Shown here in pieces: positions 1-30,200 of a stretch of 36,597 nt of DNA. The stretch's first letter is position 1, and each line of letters starts with the position of its first letter. The DNA comes from Nitrospirota bacterium (GTDB lineage: Bacteria > Nitrospirota > Thermodesulfovibrionia > Thermodesulfovibrionales > UBA6898): the NCBI GenBank assembly GCA_004321925.1, contig SCQH01000045.1, forward strand, positions 1-36,597, in the 5' to 3' direction. The position numbers were made by a program, and so were the translations under genes. Below the pieces are notes generated by a model. That model was given only the letters and a program-made list of their open reading frames with translations, had not been told where the DNA came from and did no database searches.

Positions 1-1635
1 GCAGAAGGTTCGGCCTTCATTTCTGAAACGATCTCCGGGGACAGGATATGGCAGGCGATAGAAGCTTTAAACGCCCTCATGCAGAAGATGGCACTCTACC
101 TGCGCAGGTCCGAGACCATGACGATGGAAAGTATGGTCAAACTCGGCGGCATCGTCTCAACGGTCGATGATGTGCATCTGCATCTGGAGGAAATGGAGCA
201 GATAGCACGGACACTGCGGGTTCTCGGCCTTTCGACCGCTTTACAGAGCGCTGCCTTGAGAAGGACCGGGAGCGAAGGAAAGGTCCTCGGTTCTGACATC
301 AAGACCCTCTCCTTTGTGGTCCAGGAGAAGTCCCAGAACATCGGCGGCAATGTCGCGGCCCTGGTCACCTTCATCCAGACCACCCTTGCCCGTCTCAAAC
401 TTCTTGAAGAAAGCCAGCAGAAAAAGGCATCGGTCGTGCTCAAGGCGACCATGGCAGGCATTAATGCACTCATTGCAAAGCACCGGCTTGCCACCACCAC
501 CTCGCGTGACATATCCGCTGCTGCTGAGAATATATCCAAAAGCATCGGCAATGTGGTGTCCTCACAACAGTTTCACGACATCACCCGCCAGCAGTTCGAG
601 GCGATCAGAAATGCCTTTGCGACAATGTCGGCTGCCCTTCTGGCCCATCCCGGCCTCCGGAACGAATTGCCGGGGGCTCCCGGGACCGGTCAGGACCGGA
701 TGCGGGAAGCGGCGCACCTCTGCTTTTCACAGGCGGCTGCGCTTTCAGAGACCCGCAGGATCTTCATCACTGCGGTCGAAACCATCATAGGAAATCTTAA
801 GGCCATTGCCGGGGCCGTGCGGGATATGAACAGGAAGACCGACCTGCTGACCGGTCGTGACAGTTCGTCCGGATCTTTTCTCGCCGGGCTGGGGGGCACC
901 CTCTCCTCAGTCATGTCGACCCTTGCCGCCCTATCCGAGGATATCACAACCAAAAAAGAGCTCGCCGAGGCGGTAACCTATATCTGGAGGACGACGACCG
1001 AAATGGCCGGCTTCATCAGGGAGATCGAAGACATAGGCGACGAGGTCGACCTGATCGCCTTTAATGCCGCCGTGAAGGCAAGCATGCTCGGAGAAGAGGG
1101 AAAACCGCTCGTCGTGATCGCAGAATGGATACAGCGCGTCTCCTTCGAAACACAAAAACATACGAACGCCGTATCCGAGATGCTGAACTCGGTCACCCGG
1201 TATACCGCTGAACTGTCGGGAAAAATTGACGACAGCTTTACCTCGGGAGGCTCTGAGGTAAAAGAGATGTCCGACACGCTTCAGTCCCAGGTGGGATTAC
1301 TCTCAAAAGCGAACAGGGAAATTCAAAAGACGAATACGGAGATCGAAGCCGTCAGCAGCACCCTTGCAGATGACATCGAGGCGGCAGCGGAAAAGATAAC
1401 GGTCTACACCCTGGTGGATTCCTCGGTCACCCGGATCCTTACTCTCCTTGAAGCTAATCTGGCCAGGATAAGGATGGCGGTACCCGAGATAACGCAAGCG
1501 GCCTATGGCGACGGCGATGCCGCTACCCCGTTGCAGGGCGAGGGAGGTCTTCCGGCGGAAGGTCCCGGGGCGCCGGAGACAGGATCCGCCCGGGAAGCGG
1601 AAAAGGAATTCGGAGAGAATATCGAACTGTTTTGA
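1..1635 (+). CDS. Divergent methyl-accepting chemotaxis-like protein (5' partial)
   Basis: The frame is open from the first base, so the start lies upstream; 544 residues are visible. The protein is almost entirely helical and coiled-coil-like with no membrane segment in the visible part. Around positions 1030-1150 there is a recognisable but degenerate receptor hairpin tip: DLIAFNAAVKAS stands where canonical receptors have NLLALNAAIEAA, and VVIAEWIQRVS stands for VVADEVRKLAE. An earlier segment reads SSQQFHDITRQQFEAI, resembling the QFQD-type motif seen in other chemotaxis helices. It is followed 22 bases later by a STAS gene, then cheY and cheA, so it probably works in that signalling complex. 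The C-terminal 40 residues are low-complexity, rich in Gly, Glu and Pro. Inference: a soluble or N-terminally anchored receptor-like scaffold with altered CheA/CheW contacts. The ligand is unknown. Confidence 0.7.
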   Translation, partial: AEGSAFISETISGDRIWQAIEALNALMQKMALYLRRSETMTMESMVKLGGIVSTVDDVHLHLEEMEQIARTLRVLGLSTALQSAALRRTGSEGKVLGSDIKTLSFVVQEKSQNIGGNVAALVTFIQTTLARLKLLEESQQKKASVVLKATMAGINALIAKHRLATTTSRDISAAAENISKSIGNVVSSQQFHDITRQQFEAIRNAFATMSAALLAHPGLRNELPGAPGTGQDRMREAAHLCFSQAAALSETRRIFITAVETIIGNLKAIAGAVRDMNRKTDLLTGRDSSSGSFLAGLGGTLSSVMSTLAALSEDITTKKELAEAVTYIWRTTTEMAGFIREIEDIGDEVDLIAFNAAVKASMLGEEGKPLVVIAEWIQRVSFETQKHTNAVSEMLNSVTRYTAELSGKIDDSFTSGGSEVKEMSDTLQSQVGLLSKANREIQKTNTEIEAVSSTLADDIEAAAEKITVYTLVDSSVTRILTLLEANLARIRMAVPEITQAAYGDGDAATPLQGEGGLPAEGPGAPETGSAREAEKEFGENIELF

Positions 1636-1657
1636 ATCGGTAGAAGGAGGCAGGAAG

Positions 1658-2008
1658 ATGGGTGAATACAGAATGAGCGAGTCGGAGATACCGGGGACAC
1701 TGATCATATCGGGATCACTGGGCATCGAAAACTCGGCACGTATCAAGGAGGCCCTGATGGAGGTCCTTGAGAGGTCTGAGCATATCGTGCTGAAGCTTGA
1801 GAAGGACTCCTCCGTGGACCTGTCTTTCTTGCAGATACTTTGCGCAGCCCATCGCGCTGCAACCCTGAGGCAGAAGACCTTTGAGGTCCTGGGGGCTAAC
1901 GCCGACAATTTTGAGCTGACGGTAACAGACACCGGCTATGCCCGCACCTGCGGGTGTGCCATGGATAAAGACCACACCTGCTTATGGGTACGGGGAGGAA
2001 AGAAGTGA
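1658..2008 (+). CDS. STAS-domain protein with Cys-rich tail
   Basis: This is a 116-residue protein. ATG 1658 is chosen because an AAGGAGG ribosome-binding site sits at 1644-1650. Residues about 10-95 match the anti-anti-sigma/STAS fold: ISGSLGIENSARIKEAL, then KDSSVDLSFLQILCAAHRAA, where the usual phospho-acceptor Ser/Thr region of SpoIIAA-like proteins reads DSSVDLSFLQ. STAS proteins of this size are found in chemotaxis operons, where they may act as phosphorylation-dependent switches or scaffolds; that role is inferred. The last 20 or so residues carry CGC and HTC, a cluster of Cys and His unusual for a STAS protein. Its TGA stop overlaps the GTG start of cheY, so the two are translationally coupled. 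Confidence 0.75.
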   Translation: MGEYRMSESEIPGTLIISGSLGIENSARIKEALMEVLERSEHIVLKLEKDSSVDLSFLQILCAAHRAATLRQKTFEVLGANADNFELTVTDTGYARTCGCAMDKDHTCLWVRGGKK

Positions 2009-2370
2009 GCAAGACGATTATGACAGTGGACGATTCTGCAAGTGTCAGACAGATGGTAAGCTTCACGCTCAAACAGCTCGGACATCATATTGTCGAAGCG
2101 GCCAACGGTATGGACGCCCTGAAAAAGATGGACCTTAAACCGATCGATATGCTGATCACCGACATCAATATGCCCGAACTTGACGGGATAAGCCTTGTGA
2201 AAAAGGTGCGGGAAAACCCTGCATACCGGTTCATCCCGATCATCATGCTGACCACCGAGTCACAGGCAGAGAAAAAACAGGAAGGGAAAGCGGCAGGCGC
2301 AACAGGCTGGATCGTCAAGCCGTTCAGGCCGGACCAGCTTATCGCGGTCGTAAAGAAGGTGCTGGGATGA
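2005..2370 (+). CDS. cheY: CheY-like single-domain response regulator
   Basis: A 121-residue receiver domain and nothing else. The start is placed at GTG 2005, which overlaps the upstream TGA (GTGA) and follows a GGAGG-type site at about 1994-1999; this gives the usual MSKTIMTVDDS beginning. An in-frame ATG at 1984 would add an uncharacteristic N-terminus. The acidic pocket is D9-D10, the phospho-acceptor is D53 in LITDINMPELDG, the conserved Thr lies in MLTTES, and the conserved Lys lies in WIVKPF. In the family, CheA phosphorylates this Asp and the phospho-protein carries the signal to the flagellar motor. Its stop overlaps the start of cheA, so CheA and CheY are probably produced together. 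Confidence 0.92.
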   Translation: MSKTIMTVDDSASVRQMVSFTLKQLGHHIVEAANGMDALKKMDLKPIDMLITDINMPELDGISLVKKVRENPAYRFIPIIMLTTESQAEKKQEGKAAGATGWIVKPFRPDQLIAVVKKVLG

Positions 2371-4484
2371 GCAACGGGCTTGAGGAGCTGAAAAAGACAT
2401 TCAGGGCCGAGGCCATGGAACTCCTGGCCGCCCTTGAGAGTTCGCTCCTGGAACTGGAATGCAGTCCCGGGAACCAGGAGACCATCGGCTCGATCTTCAG
2501 GGTCTTTCATACCCTCAAGGGTACAGGGGCCATGTGCGGTTTTGATGAGATCTCTCATTTTACCCATGAGATCGAGACGCTCTATGACATGGTGCGCTGT
2601 GGGAAGATCACCCCTGACAAGGAGCTCATAGACGTAACCCTTGCTGCGGGCGATCTCATAAAACAGTTCCTGACCCTGGATGAATCCTCAACAGGGGAAC
2701 TCGCAGAGCAGGAGGCCGGACTCCTTGCCGCCTTCAGGAAATTCATGCCTCAGGAAGCCTCGGCCGCGCCTTCCGGCAAGACCTCCGGGGCAGTAGCTCC
2801 CGGTGCGCCACCCGTTCAGGCGAAACAGGTCACCTACCGGGTTCGCTTCAAGCCGTTCAAAGAGATATTCAGGGGCGGGACGAACCCGGTCCTCCTTCTG
2901 AGCGAATTGCGCGGTCTCGGGGACTGCACGATCGCGGCCCATACCGATGCGATCCCCGATATCTATGAGATGGACGCCGAGGCCTGCTATACCTTCTGGG
3001 ACGCCATTTTGACAACTGACAAGGGGCTCGACGCTATCCGGGACATCTTCATCTTTGTTGAAAATGAAAGCGAACTGAAGATCGATATCATCGACAACGG
3101 CGAAAGCTCACTCGGGGTGCTCGATTACAAGAGGCTTGGAGAGATACTCGTCGAAAAAAGAGAGCTCCGCAGGGAAGACCTCGAGGCGGTCCTTCAGACC
3201 CGAAAACTGCTCGGAGAGATGCTCATCGAGAAGGGACTGGTCGATCCTCAGACCGTGGAAATGGCCCTGACCGAGCAGGAACGTCTCAAACAGATACGCG
3301 AGAACCGGCTGAAGATCGAGTCGATGGCCAATATCAGGGTATCGTCGCAGAAGCTCGACAAGCTGGTCAACCTCGTGGGAGAACTGGTGACCGTCCAGGC
3401 GCGTCTCAGCCAGACCTGTGCGGCGAGAAATGACGCCATCCTGCTTTCGATCTCCGAGGAAGTGGAGCGCCTGACCATGGAACTCAGGGACAATACCATG
3501 GACATCCGCATGATGCCGATCGGTTCCACCTTCAGTTCGCTCAAGCGGGTTGTCCGCGACCTTTCAATAGAACTCGGCAAGCAGGTCGAGCTCATCACGG
3601 ACGGGGGTGAGACCGAACTGGACAAAACGGTCATAGAAAAGCTCCACGACCCCCTTGTCCATCTCATCAGAAACAGCCTCGACCACGGGGTGGAACTTCC
3701 GGCTGCACGGGAAAAGGCCGGTAAATCAGCAGGCGGGATCATCCACCTTGCCGCAGCCCACTCAGGAGACCATGTCGTGATACAGATCATGGATGACGGC
3801 AAGGGTCTTGATCCGCGGAAGATACGGGAAAAGGCCGTCAAGAGCGGACTGATCCAGCAGGATGAACAACTCTCCGAGCGGGAGATCTACGAGCTGATTC
3901 TTGCCCCGGGCTTCACCACTGCCGAGGGCGTCACCAGCGTCTCAGGCCGGGGTGTCGGGATGGATGTGGTGAAAAAAGCTGTCGATGCCCTCAGGGGGTC
4001 GATCCATATCGAAAGCCACCTTGGTTACGGAACGACCATTACCCTTGTCCTCCCCCTCACCCTTGCGATCATCGAAGGCCTCCTGGTGAGGATCGGCGGC
4101 GACCACTTTGTGCTCCCCCTCTCCCTGGTGGAAGAGTGCATGGAACTGACCGGAAAGGACATCAGCAGGCACCACGGCAGGCATATCGCCGATGTCCGAG
4201 GGAAAGTGGTGCCGTATATCAGGCTTCGTGAGCACTTCATGACCGAAGGCGCCCGGCCCGAGATCGAGCAGATCGTCATTGTCAACTCAGACAACCACCG
4301 TATTGGGCTTGTGGTCGACAGCGTCATAGGGGGGCATCAGACCGTCATCAAGACCCTGGGCAAGGTCTTTCGGGATATCCGGGGGGTATCAGGGGCCTCG
4401 ATCCTGGGAGACGGCTCTGTCTGCCTGATCGTCGACGTTGAAAAACTTATCCATTCAATAGAGAAAGAGGAGGTGGCCGGATAA
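2367..4484 (+). CDS. cheA: Chemotaxis histidine kinase CheA with MshEN-like insert
   Basis: A 705-residue kinase that overlaps cheY by four bases (ATGA). Domains in order: Hpt at about 1-105 with phospho-acceptor His48 in HTLKGTGA; an Ala/Pro linker; a P2-like alpha/beta region at about 155-245 (KPFKEIFRGG, then DAIRDIFIFVE); a helical insert at about 252-312 with two LGExLxEK motifs (L257 and L282); the dimerisation helices (KLDKLVNLVGEL); the ATPase with N box HDPLVHLIRNSLDHG, G1 DDGKGLD and G2 SGRGVGMD; and a C-terminal CheW-like domain. All catalytic elements are present, so it should be active. The LGExLxEK insert resembles the N-terminal MshEN/GspE-N fold of type II secretion and pilus ATPases, which binds c-di-GMP in some proteins. 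That resemblance is by motif only. Confidence 0.93.
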   Translation: MSNGLEELKKTFRAEAMELLAALESSLLELECSPGNQETIGSIFRVFHTLKGTGAMCGFDEISHFTHEIETLYDMVRCGKITPDKELIDVTLAAGDLIKQFLTLDESSTGELAEQEAGLLAAFRKFMPQEASAAPSGKTSGAVAPGAPPVQAKQVTYRVRFKPFKEIFRGGTNPVLLLSELRGLGDCTIAAHTDAIPDIYEMDAEACYTFWDAILTTDKGLDAIRDIFIFVENESELKIDIIDNGESSLGVLDYKRLGEILVEKRELRREDLEAVLQTRKLLGEMLIEKGLVDPQTVEMALTEQERLKQIRENRLKIESMANIRVSSQKLDKLVNLVGELVTVQARLSQTCAARNDAILLSISEEVERLTMELRDNTMDIRMMPIGSTFSSLKRVVRDLSIELGKQVELITDGGETELDKTVIEKLHDPLVHLIRNSLDHGVELPAAREKAGKSAGGIIHLAAAHSGDHVVIQIMDDGKGLDPRKIREKAVKSGLIQQDEQLSEREIYELILAPGFTTAEGVTSVSGRGVGMDVVKKAVDALRGSIHIESHLGYGTTITLVLPLTLAIIEGLLVRIGGDHFVLPLSLVEECMELTGKDISRHHGRHIADVRGKVVPYIRLREHFMTEGARPEIEQIVIVNSDNHRIGLVVDSVIGGHQTVIKTLGKVFRDIRGVSGASILGDGSVCLIVDVEKLIHSIEKEEVAG

Positions 4485-4508
4485 GCTCATGGCAGCACCG
4501 CTCGATAA
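4482..4508 (+). promoter_or_regulatory. Candidate sigma-28 (FliA) promoter for the MCP-cheW pair
   Basis: TAAG at 4482-4485, a 15-base spacer and CTCGATAA at 4501-4508 resemble the flagellar sigma-28 pattern TAAA-N15-GCCGATAA (3 of 4 and 6 of 8 matches). It starts at the end of cheA and lies about 60 bases before the MCP start, where a chemoreceptor promoter would be expected. The match is by eye only. Confidence 0.4.
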
Positions 4509-4569
4509 TTTTATATACATTACCCCTGACAGGGACATATTACATTAAATTTTTTCTCAAGGAGGGCTC

Positions 4570-6276
4570 ATGCTTAAGAATTTAAAGATAGGATCAAGAC
4601 TGTTAGTAGGCTTCGGGATTGTCGTGCTTATCACTCTTGCGATAGGTGGCTCTGGATACTGGGGGGTCGATTCCATAACATCAAAAGTGATCACCATGCT
4701 CCAGACCGATTCCAATGTCTCTGAAAATGCTTCCCGTGCCCGCGCCAATGTCAACGCACTGCGGAGGTACGAGAAAGACCTTTTCATAAACATCGGGAAC
4801 AAGGAGAAAGAAGAAGACTATCACAAGAAATGGCAGGAGCAGCAGGACCATCTCAACAAGAGGATGGCTGAACTGGACAAAGTTGTTTACATCAAGGAAG
4901 AGAAGGAGCAGCTCAAGGACATGCAGACCGAGATGAAGGCTTATGACGCCGGCTTCCTGAAGGTCTATAACCTTATCAAGGCAGGCAGCATAAAGACCAC
5001 GCAGGAAGCGAATAATGCCATAAACGAATACAAGGACTCAGTACATAAACTCGAATCATCAGCGAAGAGTCTTGCTGAAGCAGGCAATGCTCGTATGGAG
5101 GGTGAGGAACCTATCTTGAAGGCCTTTGCAAAAAGGATCACCTTCATTATGCTCATGCTTCTCCTTGTTGCCATGGCCCTGAGCATCGGCATTGCCATGT
5201 TCATCACCAACAGCATTGTGAACCCCTTGACAAAGGGAGTGGTGGTAGCCAATGCCCTTGCCGAAGGGGACCTGATGCTGAACGTTGAGGTAACGAGCAA
5301 GGACGAGACAGGGCAGCTGCTGCTTGCGATGAAGAACATGGTGGAGAAGCTCAGGGAGATCGTGCTGGACGTGAAGACCGCCTCTGACAACGTGGCCTCA
5401 GGGAGCCAGCAGATGAGCTCCAGTTCAGAGGAGATGTCCCAGGGCGCCTCAGAGCAGGCGAGCTCCGTGGAAGAGGTCTCGTCGTCGATGGAAGAGATGG
5501 TATCAAACGTGCGCCAGAATGCGGACAATGCGCAGCAGACAGAGAAGATAGCCCTGAAATCTGCCGGTGACGCCCGCGAAAGCGGCAGGGCGGTCGGCGA
5601 GACCGTGACGGCGATGAAAGAGATAGCCGGCAAGATCTCAATCATCGAAGAGATAGCCCGCCAGACAAACCTCCTTGCCCTGAACGCGGCTATCGAGGCA
5701 GCGCGTGCAGGCGAGCACGGCAAGGGCTTTGCGGTCGTTGCCTCTGAGGTCAGGAAGCTCGCAGAACGGAGCCAGACAGCAGCGGCCGAGATCAGCAAGC
5801 TCTCGTCGTCGAGCGTACAGGTGGCAGAGATGGCCGGCCAGATGCTGACGAAGCTCGTCCCTGACATACAGAAGACGGCCGAGCTGGTCCAGGAGATCAA
5901 CGCAGCCAGCGCAGAGCAGAACAGCGGGGCAGAGCAGATCAACAAGGCTATCCAGCAGCTCGACCAGGTGGTGCAGCAAAACGCCAGCGTGGCAGAGGAG
6001 ATGTCCTCCACTGCCGAGGAACTTGCCGCCCAGGCAGAAAACCTCCAGAGCTCGATAGAGTTCTTCAAGATCGGGGGGGCAGAAAGAAGCAGGGTTGCTG
6101 CAGCACGGCCTGCCCCCCACATGGTAGCGCACAGGACAAAGTTCGCGCATTTGACCCACCCGGTGCAGAAACCCGGCAAGGCCGTGGCCGCAAAGCCGGC
6201 GGTTCAGAAGGGGTTTGCCCTGGACATGGGCGACACGGGCAGGGACGCCGAAGACAGTGAATTCGAGAAGTTTTAG
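4570..6276 (+). CDS. Methyl-accepting chemotaxis protein (4HB sensor)
   Basis: A 568-residue transmembrane receptor with a strong AAGGAGGG site just before ATG 4570. TM1 is at about residues 11-32. A helical periplasmic region follows at about 35-185, rich in Lys and Glu, of the four-helix-bundle MCP type. TM2 is at about 190-213, a HAMP linker at about 212-265, and then the long cytoplasmic signalling hairpin. The tip is canonical: EEIARQTNLLALNAAIEAAR, then GFAVVASEVRKLAERS. The SSSSEEMSQGASEQASS region is a typical adaptation-helix segment. There is no C-terminal NWETF-like tether; the tail ends EDSEFEKF after an Ala/Pro/Lys-rich linker. It binds CheA/CheW through the tip and is the likely substrate of the CheR, CheD and CheB encoded nearby. 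The ligand cannot be read from sequence. Confidence 0.93.
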   Translation: MLKNLKIGSRLLVGFGIVVLITLAIGGSGYWGVDSITSKVITMLQTDSNVSENASRARANVNALRRYEKDLFINIGNKEKEEDYHKKWQEQQDHLNKRMAELDKVVYIKEEKEQLKDMQTEMKAYDAGFLKVYNLIKAGSIKTTQEANNAINEYKDSVHKLESSAKSLAEAGNARMEGEEPILKAFAKRITFIMLMLLLVAMALSIGIAMFITNSIVNPLTKGVVVANALAEGDLMLNVEVTSKDETGQLLLAMKNMVEKLREIVLDVKTASDNVASGSQQMSSSSEEMSQGASEQASSVEEVSSSMEEMVSNVRQNADNAQQTEKIALKSAGDARESGRAVGETVTAMKEIAGKISIIEEIARQTNLLALNAAIEAARAGEHGKGFAVVASEVRKLAERSQTAAAEISKLSSSSVQVAEMAGQMLTKLVPDIQKTAELVQEINAASAEQNSGAEQINKAIQQLDQVVQQNASVAEEMSSTAEELAAQAENLQSSIEFFKIGGAERSRVAAARPAPHMVAHRTKFAHLTHPVQKPGKAVAAKPAVQKGFALDMGDTGRDAEDSEFEKF

Positions 6277-6287
6277 GGGGTGATGAT

Positions 6288-6791
6288 ATGAGCGTAACAG
6301 GAGTTACTGAGACAACGCAGTATCTGACATTCAAGCTTGAGGAAGAGGTCTTTGCCCTGGACATCTCGAAGGTGCGGGAGGTCCTCGATTTTACGGCAGT
6401 GACGAAGGTGCCGCGCACGCCGGAGTTCATGCGGGGGGTGATAAACCTCAGGGGCAATGTGGTGCCGGTGGTGGATATGCGGCTTAAGTTCGGTATGACG
6501 AAGACCGAAAACACCGTCAACACCTGCATCATCATCGTGGAGATAGCCCTTGACGGCGACAAGACCGTGCTCGGCGCGCTGGCGGATTCGGTGCAGGAGG
6601 TGATCGACCTCGAACCGGACAAGATAGAGCCCGCCCCGAAGATCGGCACGAGGCTGCGGACCGAGTTCATCCGGGGCATGGGGAAGAGGGACGAACAGTT
6701 CGTCATCATCCTCGACATCGACAAGGTCTTCTCCGCCGATGAGCTCTCTCTTGTCCAGGACTCCGGGCAGAAGGCCTCGGCAGATCATTAG
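6288..6791 (+). CDS. cheW: CheW coupling protein
   Basis: A 167-residue CheW domain covering nearly the whole protein. Diagnostic segments are YLTFKLEEEVFALDISKVREVL near the N-terminus, then RGVINLRGNVVPVVDMR and FVIILDIDKVF. CheW is the cytoplasmic adaptor that joins receptor tips to CheA. It lies 11 bases after the MCP stop with a GGGGGTGAT site, so the two form a pair probably driven by the same promoter. The last 20 residues are a short polar tail. No key feature is missing. Confidence 0.93.
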   Translation: MSVTGVTETTQYLTFKLEEEVFALDISKVREVLDFTAVTKVPRTPEFMRGVINLRGNVVPVVDMRLKFGMTKTENTVNTCIIIVEIALDGDKTVLGALADSVQEVIDLEPDKIEPAPKIGTRLRTEFIRGMGKRDEQFVIILDIDKVFSADELSLVQDSGQKASADH

Positions 6792-6976
6792 GACCTGAGA
6801 GAACATCAGCGTCGTCATCCCCGAACAGACGGGAAACCCTTGCCTGCTGGATGTTATCTGCTATGCGGGTTCCCGCCTGGATCGGGCCTCTGAGGTTCGA
6901 TCGGGTCATTTCTCCCGGTGAGTTCGCCTTCGTGCGGATGCAGGCATAATGGTTTTATTACCGATATCACTATACT

Positions 6977-7857
6977 ATGAACGTTTCTGAAAACACAGGA
7001 TACAAATACTGCGGCAAGATCATGGCTGCGAAGCTCTCGGACAGGGACTTCCAGCGGCTGAGCCATTTTATCCATGAGGAATGCGGCATCAAGATGGCCG
7101 TGCCTAAAAAGGTGATGCTCGAGGCCCGACTGAAAAAAAGACTCCGGGTCCTGGGCCTGGAGACCTTTGATGAATACTGCGACCTGCTCTTCAGTCCTTT
7201 GGGGATGCAGCAGGAACGGCTTAATATGATCAATGTGGTGACGACTAACAAAACGGACTTTTTCCGTGAGCCGCGGCACTTCGAATACCTTCTCCAGCAG
7301 GCCATCCCCGAGCTTATACGGCTCTGCGGTGCTGGGATGAGAAGACGCCTTGCTGTCTGGTCTGCCGGGTGCTCGACCGGTGAGGAACCCTACACTCTGG
7401 CAATGGTGCTGAGCGAATTTGCGGCCCGCACCCCCGGGTTCAATTTCAGCATACTCGCTACCGATATCTCGACCGCCGTGCTCGAAAAGGCGGTCAGGGG
7501 GGTCTACAAAGAGGAAAGGCTCGAGACCGTTCCGCAGATGTACCGGAAGAACTATTTTATGAAGAGCAAGGACAGAGGAAGGGCATTGGTGAGGGTCATG
7601 CCTGAAGTCAGATCTCTCGTCAGGTTCCGGCGGCTGAACTTTCTTGACCATGACTTCGGCATGCGGGAGCACCAGGACATTATCTTCTGCCGCAACGTCA
7701 TCATCTATTTCGACCGCCCGACGCAGGAAAAGGTGCTCGGAAGGCTCTGCGGGCATCTGATTCCGGGGGGCTACCTCTTCATGGGACATTCCGAGACCCT
7801 GAGCAGCCTGGACCTCCCCCTTGTTTCAGTCGGGCCCATGGTCTACCGAAGGCCCCT

Positions 7858-7861
<4 letters not shown>
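6977..7861 (+). CDS. cheR: Chemotaxis methyltransferase CheR
   Basis: A 294-residue protein (279 if the ATG at 7022 is used). It has the N-terminal helical CheR domain (LSDRDFQRLSHFIHEECGI, NVVTTNKTDFFREPRHF) and the SAM-binding domain (VWSAGCSTGEEPYTLA, ILATDIS, IIFCRNVIIYFD). It methylates receptor glutamates using SAM. Neither start has a clear ribosome-binding site. The conserved domain begins right after ATG 7022 (MAAKLSDRDF), and TATACT lies at 6971-6976 immediately before ATG 6977, so the true start may be 7022. The stop overlaps the start of cheD. A 185-base gap separates it from cheW, suggesting a separate transcript. Confidence 0.92.
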
Positions 7862-9461
<1,600 letters not shown>

Positions 9462-19937: not shown

Positions 19938-20294
19938 TCAGGCTGCGGCCAGAGCTTCCTCGTTCTCGGTCACTGTAACAGCGGCGGCATCTTCAACGAC
20001 CCAATAAAGGGCGAGATGCCCCTTGTCGTCGAAGTCAAAGGCTATCGTGTCCCTCACCATGACTGAAACCGTATAGGCAAGGTCCTGGAGCTTCTCTTTC
20101 AGCCCCTGAGGGGTATGGTCCTCGAGGTCATAGATCTCAAGGATGTCAATGATCTCGACAAGATCACCCGTATTATATGATTCAAGGACCATCGCATCCG
20201 CAGTCACATGGCTGGCGGCCAGCCTCTTCTTCGCGTTCGTTATCTGGAACTTCACCCGCTGCAGGCATACATTATATATTTTCGCTTCATCCAT
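19938..20294 (-). CDS. Uncharacterised 118-residue protein
   Basis: Not recognised. GAGGAG eight bases before ATG 20294, its own strong terminator, and normal codon use support a real gene. The protein is soluble, acidic and has no signal peptide. The N-terminal half is probably helical (IYNVCLQRVKFQITNAKKRL); the second half alternates like beta strands (YTVSVMVRDTIAFDFDD, then HLALYWVVED). It ends in an Ala/Glu tail. It stands alone between cysK and the symporter-kinase gene, monocistronic by its flanks. Confidence 0.7.
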   Translation of the reverse strand: MDEAKIYNVCLQRVKFQITNAKKRLAASHVTADAMVLESYNTGDLVEIIDILEIYDLEDHTPQGLKEKLQDLAYTVSVMVRDTIAFDFDDKGHLALYWVVEDAAAVTVTENEEALAAA

Positions 20295-20483: not shown

Positions 20484-23198
20484 TTACGGGGCTAAAGGAA
20501 GGGTAAAGATGAACCGCGACCCCTGGCCGGGCTCGCTCTCGACCCAAATCCGGCCACCGTGGTTCTCGATGATCATCTTGCAGATGGCGAGGCCAAGGCC
20601 CGTGCCCTGGGGCTTGCCCATCGATGCATCACGGAGCTGATGGAATTTTTCAAATATGCGCTCGCGCTCCTCAGACACGATCCCCGGTCCGTTGTCGACC
20701 ACCACGAGCCGTGCCTGATCGTCCTCCGGAGACAGCTGGAGGCTCACGCGGCCGGTATCTGAGTTGCAGTACTTGATCGCATTGGACAGGAGGTTGATGA
20801 CCACCTGCACGATCCTGTCGCGGTCGCCCGTAACATTCACGGGGCCGCCGGGCACTTCCCTGACGACGCTGATGTTCTTGTTTTGAGACAACTGACTGGT
20901 GGCAGCCATCGCCTCATCGACAGCACCGATAAGGTCGAACTTCTCGTGCGCCCAATGGTAGGCGCCGGATTCGATCTTGGTGAAATCCAGCATCTCATTG
21001 ACGAGGCGGGTAAGACGTTCAGTCTCTTTTACGATAATGTTCAGGAGCTGATGGCGCTGCTCCTTATCCATGGCGGCGTCATCCTGAAGTATCTCGGAAA
21101 AGGCCCGGATAGAGGTCAGCGGGGTACGCAGTTCGTGACTTACCGTTGAGACGAACTCATCTTTCAGGCGGTCAAACTCCTTCAGGCGTTCGTTCGTGCG
21201 CTTCAACTCACGGGTGGCCGTCTCAAGCTCGCGGGATTTCTGTTCGAGCCTGCGGCTGTATTCGATCGCTTGAGACGTCTCATCGAGTATCTTCATCACT
21301 CCCTCGATGCTCAGGGCCTCCCCTTCCACGATCGAGGAGATCATGACCCTCGCCGATGCGGCCCCGATGGTGCGTGCGAGTTCCCGCTCGGCGAAGGTCA
21401 CCAGGCTCTCATTTGCGAGCGTATTGTCCTGGAGTTCCAGTGAGTGCTGGAGCGCATATGTCCTGAAGGCCATCTCTGTCCGCTCCGGCCCGATCAGATG
21501 GGCGAGGAGCCCCTTGAGATCGCTGATCTGTGTCTTGCCGTGCCAGAGATTCCCTACCTCGGCACCCGAGGCCCTCTCCTTGTATACATCCACGAACATC
21601 GCGGCCTGCAGGCGCTCCAGGGCCTCCTGCCTGCTGAAGAGGGAAACACTGATAAGGAGCCCGACGTTGGTCAGCATGCTCCAGAACACCGCGTGGGTGA
21701 TGGGATCGAAACCAGAGAGATTGAAGAGGTGGTAGGGGCCGAGCAAGGAGATGCCGAACGGGCCCGGGTCCACAAATGACATCGGAAGCCAGCCTGAAAG
21801 CGCAAAAGAGGGGAGAAAGAGCGTATAGGCCCAGACCGCAAAGCCCCCGGCCAGCCCGGCCAGCGCACCTGTTCTGCTCGCCCTTTTCCAGTATATGCCG
21901 AGTAATATGGCAGGGGCGAACTGAGCGGCGGCGGCAAACGAGATAAGGCCAATGGTCACCAGGGCATAGGACTCTCCGATGAACCGGAAATACAGATAAC
22001 CCAGAAGCAGTATAACGACAATACTTATACGCCTTATGCCGAGGAGCATTCTGCCCATGTCGTCACGGCGGAGCAGCTTGAACCTCAGCAGGACAGGCAT
22101 AAGCAGGTTGTTGCAGATCATGGTGGAAAGCGCTATCGTCTCCACAATGACCATCCCCGTGGCAGCCGACAGGCCGCCAATAAATACAAAGAGAGCCAGG
22201 GCCGGCCGGCCGCTCTCAAGCGGGAGGGTCAGGACGAACATGTCTGCATCGACCGAGCCGGCCTGAAAGAACATCACCCCGCCAATGGCAATGGGAAGCA
22301 CAAACAGGTTTATAGCGAGCAGGTAAAGAGGAAAGAGCCATGAGGCCGTCCGTACATGCTCTTCGTTCACATTTTCAACCACCAGGATCTGAAACTGCCT
22401 CGGCAGGAACATGATGGCAGTTATGGAAATGAACGTCAGCGCAAACCAGGAAGCATAGCCCCCGGGCATGGAACCCATATCCATAAGCTTCACGGTCTCC
22501 GGCAGGAGCGTCGCCTGCGTGAAGAGCTCTGACGGGCCATCGAAAACCATGAAGGTCACGAAGATGCCCACTGCTGAAAAGGCCAGCAGCTTTACTATGG
22601 ACTCAAAGGCTATGGCAGCGACCATGCCCTCGTGCCGCTCCGTGACATCAATATGGCGCGTTCCGAAGAGTATCGAAAAAAGGGCAAGGATCAGCGCGAC
22701 ATAGAGCGAGGTGTCCTGGCCGAGATTAAGATCTCCGGCTGCGCCGCTGTTGTAATAGAAGAGCACGTTGAAGCTTGAGGATATGGCCTTCAGCTGAAGC
22801 GAGATATAGGGCATGATCCCCACGACCGAAATAACGGTCACCAGACCGCCGATGGTAGAGCTCTTCCCGTAACGGGATGATATAAAATCGGCGATACTGG
22901 TGATATGGTTGATCTTGCTCAGACGGATGATCTTCCGCAGGACCATCCACCAGATGGTGGCGGCAAGTGTCGGCCCGAGGTAAATGGGAAGAAACCCGAC
23001 CCCGGTGGAGGCGGCCCGGCCGACGCTCCCATAAAAAGTCCAGCCGGTGCAGTACACTGCTATCGAGAAGGTATAGATATAAGGGTTGCTGATGATCGAC
23101 CTGCCGCCATCCGCACGCTTGTCACCGAAATAGGCAATAGCAAACAGAATGCCGAGATAGCCAAAGGAGACCAGAAGTATTATCCAGTGCTGAAACAT
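20484..23198 (-). CDS. Sodium:solute symporter-histidine kinase fusion (CbrA-like)
   Basis: A 904-residue sensor. Residues about 1-510 form a multi-pass sodium:solute symporter (SSSF) domain with 12 or 13 hydrophobic segments (YTFSIAVYCTGWTFYGSVG near the start). A STAC-like linker follows at about 560-640 (FAERELARTIGAASARVMI), then a coiled coil. The kinase part has phospho-acceptor His688 in STVSHELRTPL, N box NLLSNAIKYCN, G1 VVDNGPGI and G2 GTGLGLAICKMI. Unlike Pseudomonas CbrA, no clear PAS domain is seen between STAC and kinase. Role: a transporter-like module senses or transports a solute and controls autophosphorylation. The probable partner is the receiver at 25582-25959 in the same unit. 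It starts just after the stop of the 94-residue membrane protein. Confidence 0.9.
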   Translation of the reverse strand: MFQHWIILLVSFGYLGILFAIAYFGDKRADGGRSIISNPYIYTFSIAVYCTGWTFYGSVGRAASTGVGFLPIYLGPTLAATIWWMVLRKIIRLSKINHITSIADFISSRYGKSSTIGGLVTVISVVGIMPYISLQLKAISSSFNVLFYYNSGAAGDLNLGQDTSLYVALILALFSILFGTRHIDVTERHEGMVAAIAFESIVKLLAFSAVGIFVTFMVFDGPSELFTQATLLPETVKLMDMGSMPGGYASWFALTFISITAIMFLPRQFQILVVENVNEEHVRTASWLFPLYLLAINLFVLPIAIGGVMFFQAGSVDADMFVLTLPLESGRPALALFVFIGGLSAATGMVIVETIALSTMICNNLLMPVLLRFKLLRRDDMGRMLLGIRRISIVVILLLGYLYFRFIGESYALVTIGLISFAAAAQFAPAILLGIYWKRASRTGALAGLAGGFAVWAYTLFLPSFALSGWLPMSFVDPGPFGISLLGPYHLFNLSGFDPITHAVFWSMLTNVGLLISVSLFSRQEALERLQAAMFVDVYKERASGAEVGNLWHGKTQISDLKGLLAHLIGPERTEMAFRTYALQHSLELQDNTLANESLVTFAERELARTIGAASARVMISSIVEGEALSIEGVMKILDETSQAIEYSRRLEQKSRELETATRELKRTNERLKEFDRLKDEFVSTVSHELRTPLTSIRAFSEILQDDAAMDKEQRHQLLNIIVKETERLTRLVNEMLDFTKIESGAYHWAHEKFDLIGAVDEAMAATSQLSQNKNISVVREVPGGPVNVTGDRDRIVQVVINLLSNAIKYCNSDTGRVSLQLSPEDDQARLVVVDNGPGIVSEERERIFEKFHQLRDASMGKPQGTGLGLAICKMIIENHGGRIWVESEPGQGSRFIFTLPLAP

Positions 23199-23199
23199 A

Positions 23200-23484
23200 C
23201 TAAGTATCCCCGGGACCCTTTCGATCCTTCACTGTCGGGGAATCCTGCGGACGGCTCCGGAGAACAAAGGCTGTCAGCCCGGCAATAAGAGACCATACGG
23301 AAAAAAGATAGAAATAAAAGACAGGGATGCCAAAGACAAACCCGCTGACGCTAAAGATCGACAAAAGAGGAAAGTTCAGGAGCGCAAGTCCGCCGAGCAT
23401 AAGTGCCGCAAGACGCTCTTCGCGGGGCTCCGGGTCGGGAATCTTGCCGGTATCCGGGGCAGTCGGTTCTTCCGGCCCTGTCAT
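23200..23484 (-). CDS. Small two-helix membrane protein
   Basis: A 94-residue protein with an acidic Pro-rich N-terminus (about 1-25), two hydrophobic segments (LAALMLGGLALLNFPLLSIF and VFYFYLFSVWSLIAGLTAFV) and a basic tail. It resembles the small membrane subunits that accompany SSSF-type transporters, such as the short proteins next to acetate permease-like genes; the family is not assigned. Its ATG overlaps the stop of the exonuclease gene by four bases. Its own stop is one base before the symporter-kinase start, so tight co-translation suggests it is a partner of that sensor. Confidence 0.75.
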   Translation of the reverse strand: MTGPEEPTAPDTGKIPDPEPREERLAALMLGGLALLNFPLLSIFSVSGFVFGIPVFYFYLFSVWSLIAGLTAFVLRSRPQDSPTVKDRKGPGDT

Positions 23485-25553
23485 TGGCGCACTGCCTCCA
23501 GCATCTGTCCGAGGGTGGTGATCCCCTTTTCCTGGAGAAGGAAGAGGAACTTGACAAATATCTGTGCAGTGATCAGTGAGTCACCAAGCGCAGTATGCCT
23601 CCCCCTCACCTCCACACCCAGACGCCGGGCAACGGCGTCCAGCGAGTGCTCTGGTGTGTGGGCATGCAGATAGCGTGACAGTTCCAGTGTGTCGAGGACC
23701 GGTCCGCGGAAGCGGACATTTGCCCTGCCTTCCTTCATTCTTATAAAACGCATGTCGAAAGCGGCATTATGTCCCACAAGGACGGCATTACCCACAAACG
23801 CATGAAAACGGCCCAGCACTTCTTCCAGGGGAGGCTTCCCGCCGACCATGTCAGCGGTGATCCCGTGAATGCGGACCGAGGACTGCGGGATACTTCTCCC
23901 GGGGTTCACTAACTCGTCAAAGGTCTCACCGACTATAATGCCCCGTTTAATAATTTTCACACCGGCAAGGGAAATGATCTCGTCGCCTTCAAGGGGAGTG
24001 AGACCCGTCGTCTCGGTATCGAACACAACAAAGGTCATCGTGCTCAATGGGAGGTCCCTCAAGGGTGAGGTTTCTGCGGCCTCTTCGGTGGCAGAGAAGT
24101 CGGTGTAAACGGGCCTGGCCGGAACCAGGGGGAACGCAGGTTCCCACTGGCGTGTGGAAGACGGCAGGGGCAGTCGCAGTATGGCAAAGCCCGGGGTGTG
24201 ATGGGGGCTGCTCCATATTTCACTCCCCAGGCGCTCAAGCACGTCCGAAACAGTATGAGCGGCAAACGCCTCAGGCAATCGGGACTTCCAGTCCCGGATC
24301 TCTGCCTCCGGCACTGCTTCGCCGGGCCAGTAGAAATTGAAATACACACGTTTATCCCCCAGCAGCGTCTCGACCTCCATATTCCGTGCCCCGGCATGCT
24401 CATGGATCCTCAGAGCCAGAAACTCAAGCAGAAGGAGCAGGGAATGGATATCCGTTCTTACCCAAAGAGGATCCCCTATCAGGGTAAGCCTGAGCCCCTT
24501 TTCCTCAAGCCGTCTCGCCACGCAGGCAACAGCATCGTCCGAAGATACGTCGTTCATGAGGTATCTCGCAGGCTCCAACTCCTCTATCTCCCGGGCAAGG
24601 ACGTCATACCGGGATGCTAGGCTTCGGGCATCAGCAGAAATAGTCTTTTCCAATGTGGCCCTGGTTGCTGTATCAATATCGGGAAGCAACTCAAGGCTGT
24701 CGGCACTAAGGATAAGACTGGTCAGGCTGGTCTGCATACCCCTGAGAGCGCTGCGCAACAGGTTTTGCCTTCGGCCACTGGCGTCGGTCTCCCTGCTTAT
24801 GTCCTCACAGACAAAAAGAAAAGACCAGGAAAGGCCCGGAACTGCAGGAAGAAGGCGCATGCCGGAGCTTATGATCGTACCGGCAAGGGTCGAGCATACG
24901 AAAGAGATGCCATTGTCCGTATCCCGGTCCTTGGGACTCCGGAGGCTCCTCTGTTTCAGAAGGGCCAGCGTGCTTTCGATCGGTGACGCAGTGCAGAGCT
25001 TGTAGAGAGAGCGTCCGAGTGCAAGGTCAGAGCTGTTATTGAAAACCCTCTTCGCCGCCGGATTGTAGAACAGGATATGGGCCTTATCGTCGCACACGAT
25101 GATCCCCTCCCGGAGAGACGAGAGGATGGTGTCGAGCCGGGCCTTTCTGTCTTCCATATCGCTGGAACCTGCAGATACCGCCTCTGCTATCTCCCGCCGG
25201 GCCTTCATGAGGGCTGCACCGATATCGCCGGCAGCTTTCGGGATATCGCCCAGAAAATGCGGGTGTGCCACGTTAATGACATATCCCGGGTTTATGTCGC
25301 TGATTATCCGTATCTCCCGGCTGAGCATCCTTAAAGGACTGATTACATAAAAGTAAAGGACTGTGTAGATCGTCAGAAGAAGCACGGCGGTGATAAAGGC
25401 GGTGACCTCAAGAGTGAGTACTATAGATGCCCGGACAGCCGGGTCTGCGGAACGGGACAGCAGGAGTATCCCGGCACCGGCAAAAAGCACTGCAAAAAGC
25501 ACTGCTGTTGCCAGCATCAAGAGCAGGAACGGGGATCGTTTGTCCAAGGTCAC
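23481..25553 (-). CDS. Membrane PAS/pseudo-kinase protein fused to DnaQ-like exonuclease
   Basis: A 690-residue fusion. Two membrane helices lie at about 10-32 and 42-70, followed by a HAMP-like linker and a PAS domain at about 125-245 (IIVCDDKAHILFYNPAAKRVF). A region resembling histidine-kinase dimerisation and ATPase folds follows (about 255-475), but the SHELRTP motif is replaced by ALRGMQTSLTSL and no N, G1 or G2 box is evident. The C-terminal 190 residues are a DEDDh exonuclease: VVFDTETTGL, VGHNAAFDMRF and HTALGDSLITA carry the catalytic acidic residues and His. DnaQ-like exonucleases near DUF294 and SSSF genes are a known arrangement. Fusion to a membrane sensor with a dead kinase is unusual. 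The substrate is unknown. Confidence 0.85.
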   Translation of the reverse strand: MTLDKRSPFLLLMLATAVLFAVLFAGAGILLLSRSADPAVRASIVLTLEVTAFITAVLLLTIYTVLYFYVISPLRMLSREIRIISDINPGYVINVAHPHFLGDIPKAAGDIGAALMKARREIAEAVSAGSSDMEDRKARLDTILSSLREGIIVCDDKAHILFYNPAAKRVFNNSSDLALGRSLYKLCTASPIESTLALLKQRSLRSPKDRDTDNGISFVCSTLAGTIISSGMRLLPAVPGLSWSFLFVCEDISRETDASGRRQNLLRSALRGMQTSLTSLILSADSLELLPDIDTATRATLEKTISADARSLASRYDVLAREIEELEPARYLMNDVSSDDAVACVARRLEEKGLRLTLIGDPLWVRTDIHSLLLLLEFLALRIHEHAGARNMEVETLLGDKRVYFNFYWPGEAVPEAEIRDWKSRLPEAFAAHTVSDVLERLGSEIWSSPHHTPGFAILRLPLPSSTRQWEPAFPLVPARPVYTDFSATEEAAETSPLRDLPLSTMTFVVFDTETTGLTPLEGDEIISLAGVKIIKRGIIVGETFDELVNPGRSIPQSSVRIHGITADMVGGKPPLEEVLGRFHAFVGNAVLVGHNAAFDMRFIRMKEGRANVRFRGPVLDTLELSRYLHAHTPEHSLDAVARRLGVEVRGRHTALGDSLITAQIFVKFLFLLQEKGITTLGQMLEAVRQ

Positions 25554-25581: not shown

Positions 25582-25959
25582 CTACCGTTCCGGTCTTCGG
25601 TCCAGTATTTCCCTGACCTTCAACATAACCTCCCGTGTCGAGAAAGGCTTGGTAATATACAGATCAGCACCCAGGGCCATCCCCTTTTCCTTCTCGACCT
25701 CACGGCCCTTGGCCGTAAGCATGATGATGGAAACATCCCTGAGCTGATCATCAGCCCTGATACGCTGGCATACTTCGTACCCGTCCATCTTCGGCATCAT
25801 GATATCGAGGATCATCAGGTCCGGACGAAACTCCCTCACCGCGTCAAAGGCCTTCTGACCATCGTCAACGCTCAGCGTTTCATAACCATCTCTCTTCATC
25901 AGGAGTTCGAGGGCAAGTACGATATTCGGCTCATCATCAACGATCAGAACGCGTGGCAT
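25582..25959 (-). CDS. Single-domain response regulator
   Basis: A 125-residue receiver: D8-D9 acidic pocket, phospho-acceptor D52 in LMILDIMMPKMDGYE, Thr in IIMLTAKG, and Lys in YITKPFS. A GAGGGAGGA site precedes ATG 25959. There is no output domain, so it must act through protein contacts or as a phosphorelay intermediate. It is the first gene of the minus-strand sensory unit and the best candidate partner of the symporter-kinase. It stands 28 bases before the exonuclease fusion gene. Confidence 0.92.
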   Translation of the reverse strand: MPRVLIVDDEPNIVLALELLMKRDGYETLSVDDGQKAFDAVREFRPDLMILDIMMPKMDGYEVCQRIRADDQLRDVSIIMLTAKGREVEKEKGMALGADLYITKPFSTREVMLKVREILDRRPER

Positions 25960-26174: not shown

Positions 26175-28097
26175 ATGCTGAGAAAAAATGCAGCCGTTTT
26201 TTTGAAGAGCCTGCCGCCGTTCAGACTGCTGGACGAACAATCACTCGGCAGACTGATCGGCCACCTCATCATGGAGCTTTATCCTGACGGTTCGCTGATT
26301 CTGAAGCAGGGAGAGCCAACGTCTCGCGGTCTTTACATTATCAGAGAGGGGCGAGTCAAAATATCGGCCCGCACCTCACCTGACCTTGAGCAGACGATAG
26401 ATTACAGGGACTCCGGTCAGAGCTTCGGGTTCCTGTCACTTGCTGAAGACGAGCTCCTCGATGTATCAGTACAGGCTGACGGAGACACCATCTGCTATGT
26501 TCTGGGCAGCGCTCAGGTAACAGAACTGCTGGACGAACATCCGTCTTTGCGGGAATATCTGATCCCGTCATATTTCCCGAAGCAGGGTAATAAGCCTGCC
26601 GGAACACCCTCGTATCCGAACACCCTGCCCCTGGGTTCTGACAGGGTCCTCTTTACTACTACGGTTATAGATATTGCCTGCCGGGACGTTTTCACGGTCC
26701 GGGATGATGTATCGATACGGGAGGCCGCCAGATTGATGTCAACCCACAGGATCGGTGCTGTCGTCGTTGTCAACGAAGCCGGCCGTCCCGAAGGGATCGT
26801 CACCTCATCTGACCTGCGTGACAGGGTACTGATACGGGAGCGGGAACTGTCGGATCCTGTCTGTGAGATCGCCAGCAGCCCCCTGGTCACGGTGGACGCC
26901 TCTGATCTCTGTTTTGAGGCACTTTTGAAGATGATGAGCCATGAGTTGCACCACCTGGTGGTGCTGGATGCCGGAAGGCTCGCTGGTATCGTCAGCAACC
27001 ACGATTTTCTGATCCTGCAGGGCATATCCCCTTACATTATGGTGAGGGAGGTTGAGGACCAGGGTACTGTGGAGGGCCTGGCCTCCACGTCGGGGAAGGT
27101 ACGGGGCCTGATAGCCCAGCTTCTCAGGGAAGGGGCCGGAGCCGGCAGCATACTGAGAATCGTTACAACGGTGAACGACCGCATCGAACGCAGGATACTG
27201 GACCTTGCACTGAAAACACTCGGCCCGTCCCCTGTGTCTTTCTGCTGGATCGTGTTCGGGAGTTCCGGAAGGAAGGAACAGACCTTTATAACGGATCAGG
27301 ACAACGCCATCATCTATGTCGACCCTGCCGATGAAGAGGAAGGGGTGTGGGCGGAGGAGTACTTCGGCCGGTTTGCGGAGTTTGTCGTTGACGCCGGCCT
27401 GAGGTGCGGGTTCAAACTCTGTCGGGGTAATTTCATGGCTTCCTTCCCTCACTGGAGGCAGCCCCTGTCGGCCTGGGAAAAAAGATTCAGCAGCTGGATC
27501 ATGACGCCCACGAAAAAGGCCATCCATAATTCGGCAAATCTGTTTGATTTCAGAGGACTCCACGGAGACATGCGTCTCGCCACGGCACTTAAAGAACACC
27601 TTATGTACTCACTCCGGAATCAACAGTTCTTTTTGAATGCCTTTCGTGATAAACAGTTCTTTCTGAAGGCCTTTGCTGACTACATAACCGACTACCGTCC
27701 GCCTCTGGGCATGTTCGGATCTCTGATGTTCGAAAAGGACGGTGATCACGCCGACCACCTCAACCTCAAGGATAAATGTCTTACCCCGCTGATCAATATA
27801 ATTCGCCTTTTCAGCTTCGAATGCAATATACCGGAGACCTCCACACTCGAGAGAATAGCTGTTCTGAAGGACATTCACCCCGTAATGAAAAAGACCGGAG
27901 AGGATCTGCAGCATGCCTTTGAATTCATTTCCCTGCTGCGGATCCGGCATCAGCTTGAGCAGGCCGCTTCGGACATCGTCCCCGACAACTTCATCGCCCC
28001 TAAACACCTGAGCTCCCTCGAACTGAGAAACCTCACGGAGATACTAAAGCTGATCGATCAGCTCATTGACGGGATAGCAAAAAAATATGCCTCCTGA
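26175..28097 (+). CDS. cNMP-binding/CBS/DUF294 nucleotidyltransferase-like protein
   Basis: A 640-residue cytoplasmic protein. Order: cyclic-nucleotide-binding-like domain at about 10-130 (GEPTSRGLYIIREGRVKI), two CBS domains at about 165-285 (IREAARLMSTHRIGAVVVVN and ALLKMMSHELHHLVVLD), a DUF294 nucleotidyltransferase at about 330-450 with FGSSGRKEQTFITDQDNAII (GS motif plus metal-binding D-x-D), and a C-terminal helical DUF294 domain. The fold is that of GlnD-like uridylyl/adenylyltransferases; the target protein is unknown. Genes of this type recur beside DnaQ-like exonuclease and SSSF genes and are thought to belong to carboxylate-uptake regulation. It is divergent from the response regulator across a 215-base gap. 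Confidence 0.88.
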   Translation: MLRKNAAVFLKSLPPFRLLDEQSLGRLIGHLIMELYPDGSLILKQGEPTSRGLYIIREGRVKISARTSPDLEQTIDYRDSGQSFGFLSLAEDELLDVSVQADGDTICYVLGSAQVTELLDEHPSLREYLIPSYFPKQGNKPAGTPSYPNTLPLGSDRVLFTTTVIDIACRDVFTVRDDVSIREAARLMSTHRIGAVVVVNEAGRPEGIVTSSDLRDRVLIRERELSDPVCEIASSPLVTVDASDLCFEALLKMMSHELHHLVVLDAGRLAGIVSNHDFLILQGISPYIMVREVEDQGTVEGLASTSGKVRGLIAQLLREGAGAGSILRIVTTVNDRIERRILDLALKTLGPSPVSFCWIVFGSSGRKEQTFITDQDNAIIYVDPADEEEGVWAEEYFGRFAEFVVDAGLRCGFKLCRGNFMASFPHWRQPLSAWEKRFSSWIMTPTKKAIHNSANLFDFRGLHGDMRLATALKEHLMYSLRNQQFFLNAFRDKQFFLKAFADYITDYRPPLGMFGSLMFEKDGDHADHLNLKDKCLTPLINIIRLFSFECNIPETSTLERIAVLKDIHPVMKKTGEDLQHAFEFISLLRIRHQLEQAASDIVPDNFIAPKHLSSLELRNLTEILKLIDQLIDGIAKKYAS

Positions 28098-29667: not shown

Positions 29668-30120
29668 CTATTTCTTTGTCTTCTTCTTTGCAGGGGCCTT
29701 CTTCGACGGTTCCACGGCATTGGCTGCCTTTTTCTGCAAGGCCGAAGGACCCTTGGCCTGGAGGTCGGTAGAGCTCTTTTTCTGAAGTGCTGTGCTGCCC
29801 GCACCGCTGTCTTCAAGGATACCCAGGATATTCTTTTCCCTGACCATGAGTATCTGCTGACCGTCCAGCTCAAACTCACTGCCCATATATCTTTCGTACA
29901 GAACATGCTGGCCGGGCCTGACCTCGCAGGGGATGAATTTCTTCTCGTCCTTCTTGGCCGAACCCTTTTTGGTCTCGTACGCACCGGGCCCAACCGCCTC
30001 AACCGTGCCCCATTGCGGCTTCTTCTTTGCAACCTCGGGGATTATAATGCCTCCCGCGGTCCTCTCCTCGGCATCGGTCGCCTTTATGACGACCCAGTCA
30101 TTCAAGGGTCTGATCTTCAT
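29668..30120 (-). CDS. GroES-like co-chaperonin with basic C-terminal tail
   Basis: A 150-residue protein. ATG 30120 is preferred over 30129 because GGAGGA then has an 8-base spacing. Residues 1-95 are a complete Cpn10 domain: MKIRPLNDWVVIKATDAEE, mobile loop with TAGGIIIPEV, GTVEAVGPG, and QQILMVREKNILGIL at the end. The remaining 55 residues are a Lys/Ala/Ser-rich, probably disordered tail with a repeated ALQKK element (TALQKKSS and SALQKKAA) ending in KKKTKK. No groEL gene is next to it, so it is probably a second, specialised GroES. The tail might bind nucleic acid or membranes; that is a guess. Confidence 0.85.
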   Translation of the reverse strand: MKIRPLNDWVVIKATDAEERTAGGIIIPEVAKKKPQWGTVEAVGPGAYETKKGSAKKDEKKFIPCEVRPGQHVLYERYMGSEFELDGQQILMVREKNILGILEDSGAGSTALQKKSSTDLQAKGPSALQKKAANAVEPSKKAPAKKKTKK

Positions 30121-30200
30121 AAGCTCCATCCTCCATCAACGGTGTAAATTTGTACCTCTATTTAAAACCTTAGGCTTCAGGGATGTCAATCTGGCAGGGG

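Follow-up and report, generated by a model that had tools for sequence, protein, structure and literature searches.

The window is a 36,597-nucleotide stretch of DNA from a Nitrospirota bacterium. A tight minus-strand gene order (receiver, exonuclease, 94-aa membrane ORF, symporter-kinase) lies next to a divergent gene on the plus strand:

25582-25959, minus strand: single-domain response regulator of 125 aa, phospho-site residues intact, ending 28 bases before the exonuclease start
23481-25553, minus strand: sensor-pseudokinase-exonuclease ORF, GTG start, 690 aa, intact frame
23200-23484, minus strand: small membrane protein of 94 aa, its ATG overlapping the exonuclease stop (ATGA)
20484-23198, minus strand: SLC5/SSF symporter-histidine kinase (CrbS/CbrA type), HisKA and HATPase_c intact, starting 1 base past the small ORF
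26175-28097, plus strand, divergent: cNMP-CBS-CBS-DUF294 nucleotidyltransferase, catalytic motif intact

Pfam recognises SSF (E 3.9e-8), HisKA (E 8e-22) and HATPase_c (E 2.3e-33) in the symporter-kinase. It gives no match to a STAC domain between symporter and kinase; the residues IGAASA loosely resemble the LGPx(x)A motif.

The 690-aa protein encoded by the exonuclease gene has the following parts, from N- to C-terminus:

25332-25535, minus strand: two membrane helices, approximately residues 7-34 and 44-74, read from the sequence
24834-25142, minus strand: PAS domain, approximately residues 138-240 (Pfam match to residues 138-186, E 2.4e-5)
24105-24821, minus strand: pseudokinase with DHp-like helices and a CA-like fold, residues 245-483 (profile and model)
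23484-24083, minus strand: DEDDh (DnaQ/PolC-type) 3'-5' exonuclease domain, residues 491-690 (Pfam, PDB matches and catalytic residues)

This agrees with the architecture proposed in an earlier sequence-only reading of the locus, namely a membrane PAS sensor, a dead kinase and an intact DEDDh exonuclease in one chain. The membrane helices are also predicted in a full-length structure model, which is poor (mean pLDDT 49, three-sequence alignment). The linker between them, as read from the sequence, is about 10 residues long and leaves no space for a periplasmic sensor domain, so sensing of an outside ligand is unlikely. Pfam returned zero matches to HisKA, HATPase or HAMP in the 690-aa protein.

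Residues 245-483 are homologous to the DHp and CA domains of histidine kinases. A profile of 48 relatives over this region, compared with the PDB, matched histidine kinases (best 4u7n, E 4.9e-12) as well as the pseudokinase DivL (4q20, E 1.5e-6). For structural comparison we relied on a model of residues 245-483 (three-sequence alignment, mean pLDDT 67.5) instead of the full-length model. Foldseek searches with this predicted structure matched kinases, DivL included, at E of about 1e-9, with whole-region TM-scores of only about 0.4 and large rmsd, which is probably due to a different placing of the two domains in the model. VIA-align matched the model to the CA domain of PrrB (1ysr) with Z 13.0 and an rmsd of 2.7 over 124 residues. 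The predicted structure has a CA-like fold where the earlier reading had noticed a kinase-like region.

The catalytic positions of this kinase fold have been lost throughout the family, which rules out a functional kinase. At the phospho-acceptor position (R271 in the window protein), 90 aligned rows have glutamate (49), arginine (12), aspartate (6), proline (5), other residues (11) or a gap (7), and histidine occurs in 0 of the 83 relatives with a residue there. The aspartate of the G1 box, one of the ATP boxes, is replaced by tryptophan in 80 of the 84 rows with a residue at that position, and asparagine is not among the leading residues in the N-box helix columns of the aligned relatives. 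The absence of the phospho-acceptor histidine and of the ATP boxes (N and G1), claimed from the window protein alone, holds across its relatives. Outside the lost catalytic residues, the pseudokinase has near-invariant positions and is complete in 83 of the 90 rows. Conserved residues of the CA-like domain include W364, W409, W422, W447 and R460, and its Trp/His/Arg set is very highly conserved. A conserved RPxYxDF linker joins the pseudokinase to the nuclease, and the most conserved part of the first DHp helix is residues 274-287, the half just past the lost histidine.

The C-terminal domain is a predicted DEDDh 3'-5' exonuclease. RNase_T (PF00929) matches residues 508-665 (E 1.1e-35) with 124.1 bits against a curated cut-off of 24, spanning model positions 1-164 of 164. 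The catalytic set D512, E514, D600, H653 and D658 is intact in the window protein, and the five DEDDh catalytic residues are kept in 89 of the 90 rows, so the nuclease (four acids and a histidine) is intact as originally described. The nearest solved sequences are PolC-type exonucleases (2p1j, E 5.8e-31), and the catalytic set is shared with PolC-type and DnaQ DEDDh exonucleases; unlike these, the window exonuclease lies outside any polymerase protein, is fused to a membrane sensor and is encoded near a DUF294 gene. Because the gene is linked to DUF294 and to carbon genes, we set the likelihood of a role in polymerase proofreading low. Of the targets suggested earlier (DNA, RNA or a small nucleotide), RNA 3' ends are our low-confidence guess.

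Relatives of the window protein were counted in three genome samples. Matches at E <= 1e-40 were present in 3 of 245 genomes from the window's own phylum, in 46 of 144 genomes around an Aquisalimonas genome and in 51 of 398 genomes from the phylum of that genome; in 42 of the last 51 the relative is long, with a match beginning at or before residue 121. A further 42 matches at E <= 1e-20 came from plasmid records, where the proteins are annotated, for example, as "DNA polymerase III subunit epsilon" or "exonuclease domain-containing protein". Paracoccus denitrificans PD1222 also has the long form (locus PDEN_RS25395-RS25415). The arrangement had been called unusual in the sequence-only reading, with a search for fusions of the same order as a check. 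The fusion is in fact not rare, long relatives being found in 42 of 398 genomes of one phylum sample, and its locus is strongly conserved. In the tree, the window protein groups with its family relatives within a mainly proteobacterial set; this placement fits horizontal transfer, the tree being unrooted.

For the locus comparison, neighbourhoods of up to approximately 8-9 kb per side were fetched and neighbours were labelled by phmmer against reference proteins from the window and from plasmids. The resulting 90 sensor-type loci draw on part of the 57 matching places listed in the Aquisalimonas set, the 52 in its phylum and the 42 plasmid records, after dropping L033 (a duplicate of L093), L039 (whose protein is encoded in two frames), and L032 and L004 (on the contig of L040). 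These 90 loci are not independent: L037/L038, L085/L086/L088 and L157/L158 are near-identical, and some genomes contribute two or three loci. L116 was excluded from the trees.

As some of the fetched stretches end at contig ends, the following locus counts are lower bounds. The DUF294 nucleotidyltransferase is the most widely shared partner (81 of 90 loci), and the GS and DxD residues of its nucleotidyltransferase motif are kept in 93 of 95 DUF294 rows. A symporter-type histidine kinase is present in 47 loci and was not found in the fetched stretches of the other 43, acs is present in 38 and an SSF transporter in 49 (either of the two in 58), and a small membrane ORF similar to the 94-aa ORF of the window in 38. 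All of DUF294, symporter-kinase, acs and SSF are absent only in L160, L162 and L168. The DUF294 frames of L173 (1043 aa) and L093 (787 aa) are unusually long, possibly reflecting extra domains or a late start choice.

The exonuclease occurs in three forms. In the short form it is a stand-alone protein next to DUF294, measuring approximately 230-320 aa from stop to stop. Twenty-four loci with this form from the window's taxonomic order (L008-L031) were picked as negative controls for DUF294 linkage, and all 24 proved to have DUF294 adjoining the exonuclease, so that they provide a contrast only for the receiver: a receiver gene is found at 0 of the 24 (1.5 kb flank), compared with 70 of the 90 sensor-form loci. 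The chance rate of DUF294 linkage was gauged instead from the 2 DUF294 matches in a 3.2 Mb genome and from a DnaQ-like locus without DUF294 (L218). The adjacency in all 24 loci suggests that the pairing of DUF294 and exonuclease is old and general. L217, another short form, is found in a locus with DUF294, SSF and acs. The intermediate form (L179-L183, 465-508 aa) consists of membrane helices, PAS domain and exonuclease without the pseudokinase, and has no adjacent receiver. The full form, as in the window protein, has membrane helices, PAS domain, pseudokinase and exonuclease. In a tree of the exonuclease domain, the sensor forms make up one side of a branch with support of 79 and the 24 short forms are grouped on another with support of 99.

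A frameshift or chance fusion is ruled out by the 83 of 90 rows in which a complete pseudokinase comes ahead of the exonuclease, and by the grouping of sensor-type exonuclease domains on one side of a branch (support 79). The fusion is real, conserved and widespread. The sensor-fused form is apparently undescribed, as a literature search, mostly without subscription journals, found no paper on it and no biochemistry on the fusion. The short stand-alone versions beside DUF294 (24/24, and L217) and the form lacking the pseudokinase (L179-L183) would also suit a scenario of a relic sensor part and a constitutively active nuclease that is just tethered to the membrane. We regard this as very unlikely, since the pseudokinase is complete in 83 of the 90 rows and retains near-invariant residues beyond the lost catalytic ones.

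The receiver gene lies within 400 bp of the exonuclease gene in 70 of the 90 loci; 68 of these 70 receiver genes share its strand and 67 are located upstream of it. The phospho-site aspartate of the receiver is kept in 67 of 70, the threonine or serine in 70 of 70 and the lysine in 70 of 70. Across the 90 loci, 70 have both a complete pseudokinase and an adjacent receiver, 13 have the pseudokinase alone, 7 have neither and 0 have the receiver alone; all 7 loci without a complete pseudokinase are thus also without an adjacent receiver. Under a stricter cut (DHp of at least 80 residues, 89 rows), 67 have both, 9 the pseudokinase alone, 11 neither and 2 the receiver alone, these two being loci with a shortened DHp that still have a receiver. 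On the tree, the receiver label switches 10 times and the pseudokinase label 3 times. There are only 2-3 independent comparisons (median p 0.5), so the association is statistically weak while consistent in direction. Nine of the 100 highest covarying pairs fell in the patch expected for docking, receiver helix 1 against residues 272-312, a number reached by 2.1% of slid placements; once the exonuclease columns were added, the figures were only 3 of 100 and 14.5%. The sequence-only reading had placed the nuclease under the direct control of a membrane sensor. With an inter-helix loop of only about 10 residues, the direct input is likely to be the single-domain receiver rather than an outside sensor of the protein itself.

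The pseudokinase might instead be a ligand-binding or purely structural dimerisation module that does not read a receiver, with the rebuilt ATP site (Trp364, Trp409, Trp422, Trp447, Arg460) binding a metabolite and setting nuclease activity together with the PAS domain. The very high conservation of the CA-like domain's Trp/His/Arg set points this way, as do the 13 of 83 complete-pseudokinase loci without a nearby receiver, and the adjacency of the receiver in 70 of 90 loci and its absence from 7 of 7 loci without a complete pseudokinase point away from it. We consider this alternative rather unlikely; ligand binding and receiver reading are also compatible, and both may hold.

DHp domains dimerise in kinases, and the dead kinase could pair with the live symporter-kinase in a heterodimer that damps or localises the latter. 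The receiver would then have a different role, such as acting on the DUF294 enzyme or serving the symporter-kinase as a phosphate sink. A symporter-kinase is indeed present in 47 of 90 loci and in the window starts one base past the small membrane ORF. Many loci, however, have a receiver and a pseudokinase with no symporter-kinase in the fetched stretch, so partnering with that kinase cannot by itself explain the linkage, and we judge this arrangement improbable.

The proposed reading of a receiver by a dead kinase has a known parallel in the DivL-DivK pair of Caulobacter, with which the window protein shares a kinase fold without the catalytic histidine, a single-domain receiver partner and a PAS domain in front. 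According to the accessible text on DivL, its DHp surface was mapped as a response regulator docking site and binds DivK~P (PMC4211667). By analogy, the conserved residues 274-287 of the first DHp helix may form the kind of surface that DivL uses for DivK~P (PMC4211667). The same text has DivL retaining the N, G1, F and G2 boxes (PMC4211667), whereas N and G1 are eroded in the window protein. DivL regulates another kinase, while the fused output of the window pseudokinase is an exonuclease.

The short forms resemble a Pseudomonas gene pair, PP_0354/PP_0353 (PA3233/PA3232 in P. aeruginosa), as described in the available parts of the published accounts, in that a cAMP/CBS/nucleotidyltransferase protein is paired with an RNase_T exonuclease. 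In P. putida, the CBS-protein gene pp_0354 and the RNase_T gene pp_0353 are reported there to form one operon, the pp_0354 promoter is bound by ErdR, deletion of pp_0353 impairs growth on pyruvate, and the PAO1 homologs adjoin actP (PMC9927547). The authors call the precise role of pp_0353 unclear and speculate on mRNA decay (PMC9927547). From similarly partial texts, the cNMP-CBS-nucleotidyltransferase Pflu5625 belongs to the CrbS/R regulon (PMC5715377), and PA3232-PA3235 are upregulated on propionate (PMC9765439). The pair is tied to actP and to the acetate regulon of CrbS/R (MxtR/ErdR), as the module here is to carbon genes. Compared by description, PP_0353 is a putative RNase_T-family exonuclease for which the accessible text mentions neither a membrane, PAS or pseudokinase part nor a receiver of its own. 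CrbS/R and CbrA/B, so far as the texts seen describe them, combine an SSF symporter and an intact histidine kinase in one protein, like the symporter-kinase of the window; they differ in that the linked receiver here is without a DNA-binding domain and the proposed output is a nuclease.

Our preferred reading, to which we give just short of an even chance, is that a DivL-like pseudokinase reads the phosphorylation state of the receiver and gates a membrane exonuclease within a CrbS/CbrA-type carboxylate-sensing module. The fusion protein would be the output arm of a CrbS/CbrA-type (symporter-kinase) two-component system. We infer phosphotransfer from the symporter-kinase (20484-23198), which would sense a carboxylate-type solute as its putative ligand, to the receiver (25582-25959). 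The receiver, phosphorylated or unphosphorylated, would then bind the dead kinase at its DHp-like helices, in the manner of DivK~P on DivL, and the docking signal would pass through the CA-like domain and the RPxYxDF linker to the DEDDh exonuclease, with control in either direction turning the membrane-bound nuclease on or off. The PAS domain may contribute a second, cytoplasmic input. The nuclease and the cNMP-CBS-DUF294 nucleotidyltransferase might together tune carbon use post-transcriptionally. A version in which the two-component output is nucleic-acid trimming in place of transcription seems to us rather unlikely; here the phosphorylated receiver would gate the exonuclease through the dead kinase, and the exonuclease as eraser would oppose the linked DUF294 enzyme as writer, both acting on the same RNA 3' end or nucleotide-tagged target in carboxylate metabolism, and the opposition of the nuclease to the DUF294 enzyme is speculation.

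If the preferred reading is correct, environmental sensing would act directly on nucleic-acid degradation with a dead kinase as the coupler, and such coupling would be present in approximately one in ten genomes of the 398-genome phylum sample. It would extend the DivL idea, a kinase turned receiver-reader, to an enzymatic output in the same chain. It would also offer a concrete lead on the exonuclease required by P. putida for normal growth on pyruvate, whose role is unclear to its authors in the text available.

The single row of the 90 that has lost the catalytic residues of the exonuclease is a paralog of the same architecture (L116:7935-10007), in which the domain is still recognisable; the same genome also encodes an intact copy (L096). 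Elsewhere in the window, a 118-aa ORF without a Pfam or NCBIfam match lies downstream of the symporter-kinase (19938-20294), a 153-aa Cpn10/GroES-like protein, extended at its C-terminus by a long Lys/Ala-rich stretch, is encoded at 29668-30129, and a chemotaxis cluster (MCPs, CheA with Hpt and CheW parts, CheR, CheD and CheB) occupies positions 79-9461.
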